Of a stretch of 64,000 nt of DNA, positions 8,380 through 15,560 are shown piece by piece (the stretch's first letter is position 1; the number at the start of each line of letters is the position of its first letter). Location of the stretch: assembly GCF_028583425.1 (NCBI RefSeq), contig NC_072805.1, positions 15,882,001 through 15,946,000 of the forward strand, given 5' to 3'. The DNA is from Eublepharis macularius (taxonomy: Eukaryota; Chordata; Lepidosauria; Squamata; Eublepharidae). The position numbers and the translations under genes were made by a program. The notes below the pieces were generated by a model. It was given only the letters and a program-made list of their open reading frames with translations. It made no database searches and was not told the origin of the DNA.

Positions 8380-8743
8380 GTGTATTACAACATATATTGC
8401 CAATCTCTTTACCTATTCTAATTTAAACTTAAAATTCTTGCTTATTCTTGATTTTTAGCTAAATAGTCAAAAATATTTTCCATTTTGCTTGAAATTCTGA
8501 GGTTGGCATATTATTAATATAAGATGTTAATTTTGCCATTGTAGCATGTCATTTATTCGTCCATTCCTTCAGATCTGGAACTTTTCTGTCTTCCATTTTG
8601 CTGCAAAAATCACCCTTGCCACTGTTATCACACACTATGCATTTTTGGTAATATTGCTTGGTATCACAAATTTAAATTTTAATCTTTTGCATTTCTTCAT
8701 GTATTTCTATCCAATATTTCCTTGCTTCTTTAAACGTCCACTA
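8380..8743 (-). mobile_element. L1 ORF2 3' fragment, left part (split by the gypsy element)
   Basis: On the minus strand this continues the L1 sequence at 15428-15560. The two halves join across the gypsy element's CACTA duplication to give the region after the L1 C-terminal zinc-knuckle motif (an FYHMWW-like stretch, then an AKLTSY-like stretch). It is 5'-truncated and carries frame breaks. It is older than the gypsy insertion that splits it. Confidence 0.65.
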
Positions 8744-9157
8744 TGTCAGATCTGTGGCTAAATAATAGTTGTAATCCAGACTACCTTCTACAATCAGACA
8801 AGAGTCCGTTGTTTTCAAAAGATTTACTGAAAAAGGCAACCATTATAGTCCACTGGCCTAGATGCAATATCTGAGCTGGTACACGTGTATTGTTATGAAT
8901 GATAGGCAAAGAACAAGGTACAGAGTATCAAACCCCAGAAGGCCCAGCCTCCCCCCATAGTTCTCAAAACAAGCCGCTTGAAGCTGAGAAAGTGAAAGTT
9001 TCCCAAGGCTGGAAAAGCTGAAGTCAAAACATTCTTCTTCTGTGAGATAACTGCGAGGGAGCGTCTTGGCACTTGTGAAAGAAGCACTCAGATTACTAAA
9101 AGAATTAAAATGGAGTTTCTTTGGTTATACATAGAGACAAACATTCTGAACCTGACA
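8744..9157 (-). repeat. 3' LTR of the gypsy element (left)
   Basis: The 414-bp LTR has TGTCAG/CTGACA termini. Against the other LTR I count about seven scattered single-base differences, plus one cluster of changes near 9131-9140. That fits an insertion that is not ancient. Confidence 0.9.
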
Positions 9158-9172: not shown

Positions 9173-12100
9173 AAATGCTCCTCCCCCCAGTTTATGCGGA
9201 TAACGGGTATGGAACGCCTTAACTAATCTAGGAGCATGAACATGTACAGTGTGCACCCATTCATCAAACCCAGAGTCAAAGTCCTTCCATCTGATGAGAT
9301 AAAATAACTGGTTTCTCTTAACTTTAGAGTCCAAAATTTGCTGTACTTCATAATGGGTTTGATCATCAATCAATGTTGGAATAGAAGGGGCACGGGTGTG
9401 CCATTGATTTGCTGGGGGAACTTTTTTTCAAAAGGCTGACATGGAATGTATCATGCACATGGTGCAGATTTTTTGGTAAATCCAGGGCTACAGTCACTTT
9501 ATTAAGTACTTTACGAACAGGAAAAGGTCCCAGAAATTTCAAAGCTAATTTCCGACTGGTTTGAGTAACTTTTAAATTCTTTGTGGACAGATAAACTAAA
9601 TCTCCTGGTTGTAAGTCCCATTCAGCCACACGGTGGCGGTCAGCGTATTTTTTGTAATCCTGTTTGGCTTTGTCAAGATGTTGTTTAATTAGAGTCCATT
9701 GTTGAGCTGCTTCCCCCCACCATTCCGAAACATCTCTGGAGGCTGCCGAAGGAGGGGGGAGCGCTTCAAATGGGAAGGGCTTAAAGTGGAAGCCATATAC
9801 TACTTTGAAGGGGGTTTCCCCTGTAGATGCATGCACACTGTTATTGTACGAGAATTCCGCTAAGGGTAGTAAATCAATCTAGTTGTCTTGTTGAAAGTTG
9901 ATATAACAGCGGAGGAATTGTTCTAATATTTGATTAGTTTTTTCGGATTGTCCGTCGGTTTGAGGATGATGGCTGGAACTTAAACCTTGCTCAATTCCTA
10001 GAAGCTGTAGAAGCTCCCGCCAGAAGTTGGCAACAAACTGTCCGCCGCGATCCAAAATCACCTTTGACGGAAAAGAATGTAGTTTAACAATGTGCTTTAA
10101 GAAGATATCTGCTAGTTTTCGGGCCGAAGGTATGGTGGTGCAGGGTATGAAATGAGCTTGTTTGGAGAACAAATCTACCACGACCAAAATGCAAGTGTGG
10201 CCCTTGGAGGGGGGAAGATCTGTGATAAAATCCATGGATATGATTTCCCATGGCTTGTTTGGCATTTCTAAAGGTTGCAATAGTCCGGGTGGCTTGCCCT
10301 TGCGTGACTTGGCACTGAGACAAATGGGGCATCACGCTATATACTGTGAAATGTCTTTGCGCATGCCTGGCCACCAAAATTGCCGTTGCACTAGATGGTG
10401 TGTTTTTAAGTACCCATAGTGGCCAGCTGTGGAGGCGTCGTGACAACGTTGTAACACTTCTTTTCTTAAGCTGTTGGGTACATAGAATCGATCCCCCCAT
10501 AGCCACTCTCCTTGTTCGGATTGCTGCAATTTTTCTTTGGGTACTTTATCCCCCTCCTTTTCTACTTCAGATTTCAGTTTTAGTCTCCACCCTTGATCTG
10601 GTTGAGGAGGCTGGGCTGCGCGACTGCGCGTTGTGACCACTCCTCCCAATTGCGTAGGTGAAAAGACAGTGTCTATTGTCTCCTCCCTTTTGCTTTTGTG
10701 TTGAGGCATGCGTGATAGGGCGTTGGCAAGAAAGTTAGTTTTGCCGGGCAAAAAGTTCAAAGTGAAATTGAATTTAGAAAAGTATTCTGCCCATCTGAGC
10801 TGCTTGGCATTTAACCTTCTAGGGCTGCGTAAAGCTTCTAAATTTTTGTGATCCGTCCATACTTCAAACGGATGGTGGGCTCCCTCTAACCAATGCCTCC
10901 AGGTGGAGAGTGCCGCCTTTACAGCAAAAGCCTCCTTTTCCCAAACGTTCCAATTTCTTTCAGGTTCAGAGAATTTTCGGGACAGGAAGGCACATAGTTT
11001 AAGCATACCGTCCTCCCCACGCTGCAAGAGGACGCCTCCTATCACAGTATCGCTGGCGTCCACCTGTACTATAAATGGGCGATTTTCGTCAGGGTGTTGC
11101 CGTACTGGTTCGGAAATAAATTGTTTTTTGAGTTGATCGAATGCTGATTGGCACTGTGGCGTCCAAGACAATTTAGCGCTTGGTTTTTTAGCTTGCTCCC
11201 CTTTGTCTTTGGTTTTTAACAGTTCAGTAAGGGGAAGCGTTATTTGAGCAAAGTTAGCTATAAATTCTCTATAAAAGTTGGCAAACCCCAGAAAAGATTG
11301 TAGTTCTTTACGAGTACTGGGCGTTTGCCATTCCTGGACAGCTTGTACTTTGCTCGGGTCCATTTTCAAGCCATCTTTGGAGATGCAATATCCTAAATAA
11401 GTGAGTTCTGTCTTATGAAATTCACATTTGGACAGTTTAATGGGCAGTTTGTTACACATCAGAGTAGTTAAGACTTTTTTCACAAGATCTATGTGTTCCT
11501 CTTCAGATTCTGAGTAAATTAGGACATCATCCAGATATACAACTACTCCCTTGTACAAAAATTCATGCAATACTTCATTGATCATGGACATGAAAACCGA
11601 AGGTGCCCCGGCCAGACCAAAAGGCATAACTAAGTATTTGTACTGGCCGAGGGGCGTATTGAACGTGGTTTTCCGTTCATCGCCTTCCCTTATACGAACG
11701 TGGAAGTAAGCATCTTTTAAATCTAATTTTGTAAAGATCTTACCTTGTGCCACGACGTTGAGTAGATCTCGAATGAGTGGTATGGGATAGGCATTGCTGG
11801 ATGAGACTGCATTAAATCCTCTAAAGTCCGTGCACAGTCTCAATCCCCCATCCTTTTTTTTGACAAATAGCACTGGAGCAGCATGCGGGCTATTTGCAGG
11901 TCGGATGAATCCTCTTTGAAGATTAGTGTCAATGAACTTGCAGAGCTCCTCCCGTTCATTTGGGCTCATGGGATACAGTCTGCCCTTGGGTAAAATTTCC
12001 ACGGCACAGTCCGTCCTCCGGTGGGGAGGTAAGGAGTTAGCTTCTTCTTCAGTGAAGGCTTGGACATAGGCTCTGTACTGTTTAGGTATTTGGTTAAGTT

Positions 12101-12626
12101 CCTCTTGAGTTAACAGGGCTTGCTCAATGAGGGTAGGGTTGTTACCCCAATTTTGGTTCCAACGATGATTTTTACATTTATCATGGGAAAAAGTAATGCT
12201 TCCAACCGTCCAGTCTATATATGGGTTGTGATCCCACAACCATCTGCTTCCCAAGATTAATGGGTATTTGGCTGTAGTACTAATTACGAACGATCTCGTC
12301 TCCCAATGTTGTCCCATACCTGTGATAACAGGTATTGTTTCGGTAGTGACTGGATTCATATTGGTGCCATTCATTTGTTCAAAAATGACTGGAGTTTCCA
12401 GATCTTTTATTGGGAGTACTAATCCATTCACTAAGGCTGGTGCAATAATGTCTCTAGAGCACCCTGAGTCTATGAGTGCTTGCACACGGATATGTGTTTT
12501 TCTTTCTGGATTGACTAACGTAACTGGTATGAATAGTATGGACCCATGAGGTCTTTCCAGAATTGGAACTGACTGATTTTCGATCTGCCGGTTGGGTCCT
12601 TTTACGACAGATCCATCTCGTTTCCC
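9170..12626 (-). pseudogene. pol: Gypsy pol: protease, RT, RNase H, integrase, chromodomain (broken)
   Basis: The frame opens upstream of the first possible start: it is free of stops from the frameshift site at 12626 down to the TGA at 10332. In order I see a retropepsin-like ALIDSGCS motif (about 12465), reverse transcriptase with YLDD (about 11530), an RNase H with VDASD (about 11070), and an integrase zinc-binding region (about 10400). The integrase core follows, with DFITDLP (about 10238), DRGGQF (about 10050) and a downstream Glu. The last domain is a chromodomain with YLIRWKDF at about 9290. The breaks are a TGA at 10332-10334, a TAG at 9879-9881, and a frameshift in an A/T run near 9425 just before the chromodomain. 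Pol lies in the -1 frame relative to gag. Confidence 0.9.
12540..12626 (-). promoter_or_regulatory. Predicted -1 ribosomal frameshift signal (GGGAAAC plus pseudoknot)
   Basis: On the minus strand the heptamer G GGA AAC (12626-12620) sits in the gag frame five codons before the gag stop (TAA, 12604-12602). Moving back one base at this site enters the pol frame exactly (12626 minus 12485 is 141, a multiple of three), with no stop in between. After a 6-base spacer comes GATCTGTCG (12613-12605), which pairs with CGGCAGATC (12590-12582) as a 9-bp stem with one G-U pair. The 14-base loop contains GGACCC (12599-12594), complementary to GGGTCC at 12545-12540, so a pseudoknot can form. The host gene PEG10, derived from a Sushi-ichi element, is known to use the same heptamer. 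Confidence 0.8.
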
Positions 12627-15010
12627 GAGGCAGGACTTTCGGGGTTTTCCTCACCAATTAGAGCTGTTGAATCATAGTCCATAATTTCTTCTAGCTCTAA
12701 ACCTTTCTCGGGAGGATTTCTGCGGAAGGTCCCTCTGCCTCTTGTCGCTCTTGGAGCGGGTGTTGGGCGGGCTGGCGTGGGCAGAGAGGTGGGGGCTGAA
12801 TGCCTTGGTGGGAACGGATTTCTTTGCACAGGCCGGAATGGACATTGTGCCGCGAAGTGACCACCTTGGCCACACTGTAGACACAATCCTTGTTGCCATC
12901 TAGCATCTCACGCTCCCCTAGTTGCATATCCAGCACCCTTACTCCCTCTCACAAGTACAGATGAGTGCTGGTGCCCAGTGGTTTGTTGCTGTTCGACCAA
13001 GCGTACTTCTTGCATACGATTTTCCACTTCACAAGCTAATTGAATCCACCCTAAAAGCATGGGGGGATTATCTTGCATAAGGGCCCTGTCCAACAGTCTG
13101 GGATTCATGCCCTGTTTGAACAGAATTATTTTGGTGGACTCCTCACACCTTGGACATTTGGCGGCCAGCTGTCGGAATTTTGTAACATAGTCTCTAACCA
13201 ACATGCTGCCTTGTCTAATTGATTGTAATTCTGTTCAGGCTCTACTTTCTTCTAGGGGGTCTTTGTATTGGGCTCAGAGTGCATCTACTAGACCCTGCAA
13301 TGAATTCAGTTCGGGGGGCCCCAATTCATAAAGGGCTACATACCATTCTGCTGCTTTTCCTTGTAGGCGAGTCCCCAAATGTTCGATCTGGCTGGCTTCA
13401 TCTCCGAACAAATGTCCCCAACAATTGAAGAATTGTAAAGCTTGTACTAGGAAAAACCCTAATTTGGAGGGGTTCCTGTCAAAAGTAGCTTCCAACTTTA
13501 CCCACCCCATCGGCAGTTCTTGAGGTCTGGCGACCAGAGCAGGCAGTGAGTAATATTGTATTGGAATTGGAACTTGCCGAGGTCTCCCATCAGGGTACTG
13601 CGGAGGAGGTTGCAGAGGAGGCTGCTGGGGCCTCGGTTGAGGCTGTAGCGGCGGAGGGGGTCCTCTCAGTACAGGCTGTATTGGCGGAGGGGGTCCTCTC
13701 GGTCCCGGCTGCGGTATTGGCCGAGGAGTGGTGCCCCATTGAATTGGTGCCACAAATCTCGGCAGGAACGGCTGCCCTCGCGGCTGGGTTGGTGGCGGTT
13801 GGGGGATTGGCTGTCCTTGCGGCTGAACTGGTGTCGGTGTGAGGACCGGAGCTTCCCCCTGCGGCCACTGTGGTGTACCTCCGGGCTGTGGCGGGGTCTC
13901 TATAGGCTCCTCTCGCGGTTGTTCCCCTCCTCCTCCTCCTTCTTCTTCCTCTTCTTCTTCTTCCGTTTTGTCCGATTTATCCTCAGCTGGCCTCGGCGGT
14001 GGATTTGGTGGTTGTACGGGTTGTTGCTGATCATCTGCTAACAGGAGCTGCTGTTCTTGCAGAGCGGTGCCTGCCCCCGGAATAATCCTCTGTAAATTTG
14101 ACAGACTCTGACCGATGCTCTGTACTCCAGCAGCCCTTTCTTGGTTCCCATCTGATCCTCCGACCACGAGTACGGAGAGCAAATGAACTGCATGGGCCAA
14201 ACTCTCTTCCATACTAGACAGTCTCTCTTCTAGTACCTGTACACGACCTGGGCCCACCACGGTGGCCTCAGTTTCTACAACTTTATGGGGAGGTTCATTA
14301 GAGGCTTGCGTAGTCTCTAAATATTCTGCATAGGACGCGGCTGCCCCAGGCCAATGCCTTATTTCTCCCATGCCTTGGGCCCCGGTACCTTGCTCTTCAT
14401 TCAATCTCCCCGCCAGGATTCCTTTCGCTAATCCTGTGACTGCCGAGATTCCGGCATCTACTGCTATGGTTCGGCTTTGTAATTGTATCCACGTGTGCTC
14501 ATTAGGATCACCTTGTCCCGTCCACGGAATGACTTCAGTATAGTCCCAACTCATCATATCGCAGCGGGACGTTTCCCATGTTTGAGTGCTCTCCGAACCT
14601 CTTCGATCCCACTCCAACTGGTCAGCCTCACGGTTCCAATAATACCAAGGTTGACTACTGGGGTGCTCTGCTATCACGCCCAAGCTCCGTTGGCCTTCCA
14701 TTGGGGGTTGCGAGAACATCATACTCGCTCTCCTTTCCCTCGCATCTTGTGGCCTCGATCCCCACTGCGTCGGTGTCAGCAGGGATATCAGTGGGTCCGC
14801 TGCCGCTGTGGGTCGAGTTTCAGTTCTGGTAGGAGCGAGGGTGTATATCGTAGTAACGGAAGATCCTGTTCCCCTTTGAACAGGTCCTTGAAGTTCCAGT
14901 CCTTCCGAACCGGGGGAGGCATAAGGATCAAACAAAGGGTCCCTGTCAGAAGCGGCTTTGGCATCCGTCTGCCCCGGCTTAGGCATTGGAACAGATGTGA
15001 TTCGTAACAA
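12602..15010 (-). pseudogene. gag: Gypsy gag with zinc knuckle, three in-frame TGA codons
   Basis: A single reading frame runs from about 15010 to the TAA at 12602. It holds a long proline-, glutamine- and glycine-rich middle (about 13570-13900), an acidic Glu run beside a Gly run (about 13925-13970), a capsid-like region (KLGFFLVQ to EWYVALY, about 13480-13340), and a CX2CX4HX4C zinc knuckle (CLQCGQGGHFAAQC, about 12886-12845). The frame is broken only by TGA codons at 13274-13276, about 13230 and 12908-12910. The third interrupts the stretch just before the knuckle. The first ATG is probably the one near 14986. A TTG at 15010 lies closer to the LTR but is a poor start. Confidence 0.85.
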
Positions 15011-15012
15011 AA

Positions 15013-15427
15013 TGTCAGATCTGTGGCTAAATAATAGTTGTAATCCAGACTACCTTCTGCAATCAGACAAGAGTCCGTTGTTTTCAAAAGATTTACTGAA
15101 AAAGGCAACCATTATAGTCCACTGGCCCAGATGCAATATCTGAGCTGGTACACGTGTATTGTTACGAATGATAGGCAAAGAACAAGGTACAGAGTATCAA
15201 ACCCCAAAAGGCCCAGCCTCCCCCTATAGTTCTCAAAACAAGCCGCTTGAAGCTGAGAAAGTGAAAGTTTCCCAAGGCTGGAAAAGCTGAAGTCAAAACA
15301 TTCTTCTTCTGTGAGATAACTGCGAGGGAGCGTCTTGGCACCTGTGAAAGAAGCACTCAGAATACTAAAAGAATTAAAATGGAGTTTCTTTGGTTATAAC
15401 ATTAAGGAAAGCATTCTGAACCTGACA
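15013..15427 (-). repeat. 5' LTR of the gypsy element (right)
   Basis: The 415-bp LTR has TGTCAG/CTGACA termini. It is near-identical to 8744-9157 and is followed by CACTA, the right half of the 5-bp target duplication. Confidence 0.9.
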
Positions 15428-15560
15428 CACTACATGTGATAAAAAGTTGCATCCTATTCTGACATATCCAACATTTTTTATTTTTATTAATTTTTGCAAT
15501 ATCTTTGGGCATAATATTACAATCTAAAACCATTTTATATTAATTCTCCCATCTCCTCAG
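15428..15560 (-). mobile_element. L1 ORF2 3' fragment, right part
   Basis: On the minus strand this reads into the L1 C-terminal Cys/His motif (TTTATCACATGTAGTG corresponds to the FYHM(W) stretch). The frame resumes at 8743 on the other side of the gypsy element. Confidence 0.65.

Follow-up and report, generated by a model that had tools for sequence, protein, structure and literature searches.

A predicted −1 ribosomal frameshift signal with the PEG10 heptamer at the gag/pol junction of a chromodomain Ty3/gypsy family in the gecko Eublepharis macularius

The stretch of Eublepharis macularius DNA analysed here (the window, 64 kb) carries on its minus strand a Ty3/gypsy chromodomain element of ~6.7 kb that is bounded by LTRs. 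Its features, given as positions in the window, are:

8739–8743: target duplication CACTA, 5 bp, one side of the element
8744–9157, minus strand: 3' LTR
9173–9427, minus strand: chromodomain, which this copy has in a shifted frame (Chromo, E = 1.5e-8)
9369–10331, minus strand: second stretch of pol, the remaining integrase, in the same frame beyond the stop at 10334
10335–12650, minus strand: first open stretch of pol, in the −1 frame (protease, reverse transcriptase, RNase H, start of integrase)
12605–15049, minus strand: gag frame (capsid, CCHC knuckle; ORF and Pfam search)
15013–15427, minus strand: 5' LTR
15428–15432: target duplication CACTA, 5 bp, other side of the element

Pfam searches returned the domains in the order capsid, CCHC knuckle, aspartic protease, reverse transcriptase (RT), RNase H, integrase and chromodomain. 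The capsid was recognised by DUF4939 below the cut-off and by Retrotrans_gag above it, and both the knuckle and the protease fell under the cut-off. Among solved structures the RT is nearest to that of Ty3 (4ol8, E = 3.5e-55; 7q5b, E = 6.6e-55), and the two capsid pieces had no solved-structure match. The domain order, the chromodomain at the end of pol, the LTRs (96.9% identical to each other) and the 5-bp duplication place the element among the chromodomain elements of Ty3/gypsy (Metaviridae), as an earlier note on this DNA had recognised. The best protein match, at 53% over 47% of the query, came from another gecko, Heteronotia binoei, and a search with the capsid part of the gag piece returned no protein match at E ≤ 0.001. 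The open stretch of gag extends into the 5' LTR; a long proline- and acidic-rich N-terminal part (13277–15049, minus strand), which opens inside this LTR, precedes the capsid, and a repeat of ~54 nt in two overlapping copies (13640–13726, 83% identical) lies in the proline-rich part of gag. The copy is dead, with three in-frame stops in gag (13276, 13237 and 12910), two in pol (10334, and 9881, which interrupts the integrase stretch) and loss of the pol frame near 9368–9427.

At the gag/pol junction lies a candidate frameshift signal with the following parts:

12620–12626, minus strand: slippery heptamer GGGAAAC, read as G GGA AAC in the gag frame
12614–12619, minus strand: spacer GAGATG, 6 nt
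12605–12613, minus strand: 5' arm of stem 1, GATCTGTCG
12602–12604, minus strand: gag stop TAA, immediately after the 5' arm of stem 1
12593–12599, minus strand: 5' arm of helix 2, GGACCCA, within the stem 1 loop
12582–12590, minus strand: 3' arm of stem 1, CGGCAGATC
12540–12546, minus strand: 3' arm of helix 2, TGGGTCC

The end of gag reads ...GCC TCG GGA AAC GAG ATG GAT CTG TCG TAA, the heptamer standing in the codon context TCG GGA AAC. A heptamer of the form X XXY YYZ is thus present in the upstream frame within the gag/pol overlap of about 49 nt, and the −1 frame is open from 12650 to the stop at 10334. Strict slippery heptamers number 25 in the ~6.7-kb element in any frame, from which, by our own arithmetic, about 0.05 in-register heptamers would be expected by chance in the overlap. 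Stem 1 (GATCTGTCG/CGGCAGATC) has 9 bp, including one G.U pair, and helix 2 (GGACCCA/TGGGTCC) has 7 bp with 46 nt between its arms and closes an H-type pseudoknot. The earlier note had described the heptamer in the gag frame, the six-base spacer, the nine-base-pair stem and a slip into pol that meets no stop, all of which are present; its pairing of GGACCC with GGGTCC also stands as a second helix, but this is 7 bp long and not 6.

The best two-helix knot starting 4–9 nt past the heptamer, as scored by stacking energy, is in the window exactly stem 1 plus helix 2, with −32.8 kcal/mol of stacking, a score that leaves out loop costs. None of 2000 dinucleotide shuffles (−9.7, sd 8.9) matched it, nor did any of 400 in a smaller run, and stem 1 alone was equalled in 9 of 2000. 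The plain minimum free energy of the segment does not stand out (z = −0.49, with a value as good in 59 of 200 shuffles); it was dropped as the sole test of structure, the program being unable to form a pseudoknot. For three diverged host junctions, introduced below, shuffles gave an equal knot in 0 of 300 (L094), 0 of 300 (L095) and, more weakly, 6 of 300 (L099). For a frameshift knot of the H type, the loop of 35 nt ahead of the 3' arm of helix 2 seems long.

A search of the species' own 2.24-Gb assembly with the 201-nt junction gave 1610 first-look candidates, the best 40 of which were scored; these near copies, the window's own included, are 95–100% identical. The heptamer is GGGAAAC in 35 of them, GGGAAAT in four and AGGAAAC in one. 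All pairs of stem 1 form in 35 of the 40, and helix 2 is likewise complete in 35 and broken in the other five; in 33 copies stem 1 is longer by a U.G pair, which the window and six others lack. As the only evidence on structure these copies were dropped, since such identity leaves almost no covariation. Two junction copies, L078 and L079 (G000:C18, 10524838–10525419), lie 381 bases apart on the same strand, each 96% identical to the query. Longer flanks were compared for 30 near copies (window's own included): the distance to the gag stop (+22) is shared by 29, and in two the changed last base of the heptamer creates a stop in pol. Given the decay of the window copy, with its three gag stops, two pol stops and lost frame, the −1 offset might have been the artefact of an indel and the heptamer a coincidence. 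This is refuted by the near copies, in all 30 of which pol starts in the −1 frame at the same place, and many members of the wider family among the matches listed have long open pol frames; such an artefact is most improbable.

More divergent sequences were reached through a protein relative (P0002), which led to a larger branch of 8625 candidates, the best 150 of which were scored; GGGAAAC is found in 28 of the 31 junctions taken from those 150 (10 of 11 and 18 of 20). One of the diverged junctions, L094, served as a DNA query and added sequences 77–100% identical to it, L094 itself included (best 40 of 873 scored). An alignment of 51 junctions was made from the window, seven of the 11, four of the 20 and 39 from the L094 search. 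Here the heptamer is GGGAAAC in 31, AGGAAAC in six, GGGAAAT in six, AGGAAAT in three and GGAAAAC in two, with AAAAAAA, GAGAAAC and TGGAAAT once each. The commonest changes are of the first G to A after C and of the last C to T before G. Because these fit the loss of CpG, we infer that the altered heptamers (5 of 40 near copies, 20 of 51 junctions) reflect the decay of dead copies, as would the broken helix 2 of five near copies.

Across the 51 junctions, 87.5% of the cells of the whole knot are paired, a level that none of 500 shuffles reached (84.4% in shuffles), and 31 cells are changed on both sides relative to the commonest pair, against 13.1 in shuffles (0 of 500), although related sequences may beat all shuffles without any structure. 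When the partners were slid by 1–3 columns, pairing was 31.8–51.3% and the cells changed on both sides numbered 2–7. Varying pairs and pair types are not above shuffles (250 of 500 and 163 of 500, respectively), so the support comes from coupling and not from variety. Taken alone, stem 1 is 93.4% paired and has 22 such cells. Within it, pair 26/45 occurs as CG in 29 junctions, UA in 15 and UG in six and is unpaired in one; a tree from which the stem arms had been left out requires at least six changes of its state (5' base at least twice, 3' base at least four times). By our own codon reading, the U-to-C step at this pair changes the amino acid in both overlapping frames, and the coupling is therefore hard to explain by protein coding. 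The comparison of related copies that the earlier note had proposed, for conservation of the heptamer and for compensatory change in the stems, thus came out in favour of the signal. The structure supported by covariation starts 6 nt past the heptamer in the window, within the 5–9 nt expected of a stimulatory structure. In two host junctions (L151 and L157) the spacer has lost 3 nt, with 3 nt remaining before stem 1 and the frame kept.

If only the heptamer and stem 1 mattered, helix 2 could be a chance complementarity kept by protein coding. Helix 2 is indeed paired less often (79.7% in the window's register, the third pair failing in 39 of 50), its register differs between subfamilies, and one relative treated below (L003) has a second helix of just 4 bp. 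However, a one-base shift of register yields GGCCCC/GGGGCC in many junctions and rescues the helix, and at least six uninterrupted pairs form in one of the two registers in 38 of the 51. Pair 40/89 is CG in 39 junctions, AU in seven, GU in one and unpaired in four. Mean identity is 0.87 in the heptamer, 0.79–0.85 in the four arms, 0.68 between the helices and 0.55 upstream, and the 3' arm of helix 2 (0.85) is, after the heptamer, the most alike of the stretches compared. Knots with a different helix 2 also recur in the contaminant elements described below. A helix 2 that arose by chance is considered unlikely.

On these sequence comparisons, the segment at the gag/pol junction of this chromodomain family of Ty3/gypsy is predicted, with a probability of roughly 0.87, to be a −1 programmed ribosomal frameshift signal. 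Most ribosomes would translate gag through to the TAA stop, while a fraction would pause at the pseudoknot, move back one base on the heptamer, from G GGA AAC to GGG AAA, and go on in the pol frame; the outcome would be Gag and Gag-Pol in a fixed proportion. The sequences show the parts, the frames, their conservation between subfamilies and the two-sided changes in both helices; slippage at the heptamer, and the frequency at which it would occur, are what we infer.

The earlier note had pointed to the heptamer of PEG10, and the likeness holds for the order of parts as well and, with the support of covariation, for the whole family. In PEG10 and in the window element the same heptamer stands in the same register between the CCHC knuckle and a DSG protease, with a pseudoknot just downstream and overlapping gag and pol. 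The spacer is 6 nt in the window and 5 nt in PEG10, and the overlap is about 49 nt and 61 nt, respectively (PEG10 values from the accessible part of PMC2800197). The window element, unlike PEG10, is a mobile element with LTRs and a chromodomain, and the likeness covers the heptamer, its register and the order of parts. Sushi-ichi, the pufferfish gypsy element with which PEG10 is compared, has a chromodomain and is likened to the window element by description. The accessible text of PMC3406341 calls the −1 shift 'conserved' in PEG10, which implies that Sushi-ichi has it. No report of a GGGAAAC signal in a vertebrate gypsy element was found among the titles, abstract openings and term counts of the open-licence papers listed.

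The heptamer is by no means confined to these elements. According to the accessible part of PMC3835772, GGGAAAC is used by nine listed retroviruses (JSRV, MPMV, SRV-1, SRV-2, SMRV, HERV-K10, SA-OMVV, CAEV and FIV), and the gag/pro signals of MPMV, SRV-1, JSRV and FIV share with the window both this heptamer and a predicted pseudoknot, although they belong to another virus family and the sizes of helices and loops are not part of the likeness. It is also among the most shifty heptamers with mammalian ribosomes, as stated in the available text of PMC5009743. Because so many retroviruses use the same heptamer, the seven shared bases in themselves say little about descent.

Relatives with a frameshifted arrangement were met on contigs of prokaryote genome records. 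The scan of prokaryote genomes gave 21 loci, eight of them in one cyanobacterial bin; this record (CAKZGI, 'uncultured Trichormus') holds 44 Ty3/gypsy pol matches (L001–L006, L015, L017, L024–L053) and looks contaminated with eukaryotic DNA, and the loci in prokaryote genomes are taken as eukaryotic contamination. One of the loci, L019 (NZ_LZSV01000036.1, a Mycobacterium genome contig), has a Ty3/gypsy-like gag-pol in one frame and is probably contamination. The scans of viral contigs confirmed no locus, the phage scan found no relatives, and the plasmid scan gave three records with remote RT matches. Two contigs from a pattern scan (L022 and L023) were rejected, having no convincing pol match (best E = 0.17). 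A motif reading of L001–L053 yielded 21 distinct pairs of knuckle and protease, with pol in the −1 frame in 12 and in the same frame in nine; L018, which is in the +1 frame, falls outside the 21, its protease having escaped the motif. Within the overlap of the 12 −1 elements, GGGAAAC stands in register in four (L003, L006, L040 and L046) and GGAAAAC in six (L001, L004, L005, L017, L041 and L043), L041 and L046 having a second, weaker candidate. The remaining two are L045, without a heptamer, and L007, a −1 element of another kind whose gag/pol overlap has CCCAAAA in register (position 1477).

Of the ten contaminant elements with GGRAAAC, eight have a knot that at most 2 of 300 shuffles equal, and those of L006 (41 of 300) and L040 (29 of 300) are no better than shuffles; the score of L003 comes almost wholly from stem 1. 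The gag stop of L001, L003–L006 and L017 stands 25 nt beyond the first base of the heptamer, which places it, as in the window element, at the 5' arm of stem 1 or slightly beyond. In L040, L041, L043 and L046, unlike the window, it lies ahead of stem 1, 7–10 nt after the heptamer start. The first six elements align without gaps and have a 9-bp stem 6 nt after the heptamer that is 90.7% paired (24.1–44.4% when slid). Three of its pairs are changed on both sides (reached by 124 of 500 shuffles), as are five cells (2 of 500), which, with six related sequences, is weak on its own.

The capsids of five of these contaminants (L001, L004, L005, L006 and L017) are PEG10-like, with scores of 119–128 against PEG10 and 25–29 of 83 residues identical, and that of L006 matches the PEG10 structure 7lga (E = 5.4e-9). 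The exact heptamer GGGAAAC is present in one of the five (L006) and GGAAAAC in four, and four have a significant pseudoknot; L006, the sole member with the exact heptamer, is the one whose knot fails to beat shuffles. Against the PEG10 capsid fragment the window capsid scores 40 (shuffled 24.9; 3 of 200 as good), with 16 of 73 residues identical.

Higher similarity to PEG10 was found in the host genome itself. A search with the protease-RT of L006 gave 12780 first-look candidates, of which 125 places were scored and seven examined (L164–L170, some of one subfamily). This lineage shares with the window element the host genome and the order capsid, CCHC knuckle (recognised in five of the seven), protease and RT, but its gag and pol are in one frame and its capsids are much more PEG10-like. 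The capsids of L164–L169 score 136–212 against PEG10, with 36–42 of 72–81 residues identical in the four longer junctions; the remaining two have 28 of 53 and 29 of 54. In all seven junctions the frame runs through into the protease, so that gag and pol are fused without a frameshift; the read-through starts at the capsid in six and at the knuckle in L170, which has stops further upstream. The knuckle is damaged in L164 and absent from L167, which may have lost part of its junction. No clear remnant of a frameshift signal was seen in the linkers of these seven, although GGAAAAC occurs in L166 and L169 without an overlap to serve. Open frames of around 1570–1630 amino acids occur in this lineage at many places among the matches listed. 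A small capsid tree (about 70 residues, supports 0.39–0.98, root placed by choice) puts PEG10 beside the fused host lineage and the window on the longest branch. The capsid of the window element is not the one closest to PEG10's, and the host lineage that is closest showed no −1 frameshift in the seven junctions examined of the 125 scored. Since its capsid shares only 16 of 73 residues with PEG10 and L164–L169 score far higher, the window family is, by sequence, not near kin of PEG10. The fused lineage is likened, by description, to Gypsy-15_Ano as a PEG10-like gypsy element, and the two agree in having no frameshift: the accessible part of PMC11011659 (2024) reports none in this proxy and holds that the metaviral ancestor of PEG10 almost certainly had one.

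The origin of the shared heptamer may be read in two ways. In one, the signal is real but GGGAAAC is convergent between the window family and PEG10, having arisen repeatedly where gag and pol overlap. This would accord with the retroviral use and the shiftiness of the heptamer, with the distance of the window capsid from PEG10's, with the closer host lineage that does without a frameshift (7 of 7 junctions), and with relatives that use both GGGAAAC and GGAAAAC, so that the heptamer moves and the exact one occurs in one of five PEG10-like-capsid contaminants. Against it, the window family and these contaminants have the heptamer in the same place, between the CCHC knuckle and the DSG protease, with 4–6 nt between it and stem 1 and a gag stop at the 5' arm of that stem or slightly beyond. 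Convergence is possible, at odds that we place well short of even.

In the other, an ancestral signal was lost by fusion of gag and pol in some lineages, and this fits best. A like arrangement at the same place in elements with PEG10-like capsids makes the signal look old among these elements. In its full form, this reading holds that GGRAAAC with an H-type pseudoknot is ancestral and vertically transmitted in a broad Ty3/gypsy group, that PEG10 inherited it, and that the closest host lineage and Gypsy-15_Ano lost it by fusion, which would make them a misleading proxy for the progenitor. The presence of the exact heptamer in one of five PEG10-like-capsid contaminants lowered our odds slightly, and the full reading is held tentatively, somewhat short of an even chance. 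The earlier note's suggestion that PEG10 inherited its signal and did not gain it at domestication is plausible, because shifted elements with PEG10-like capsids exist; it draws on the five contaminant elements with pol in −1, and not on the window copy from which it had been argued, given the common retroviral use of the heptamer, the distant window capsid and the closer, fused host lineage. PEG10 is slightly more likely than not to have inherited its signal from a relative that frameshifted, but the window family was not that relative.

In PEG10, a well-known gene of mammals, the frameshift of a retroelement is still in use. With a vertebrate genome in which the signal of a large family, backed by covariation, shares the heptamer and layout of PEG10, together with relatives that have PEG10-like capsids and a like layout and with a fused lineage in the same genome, the question of whether the signal of PEG10 was inherited or gained becomes a tree problem with defined states.
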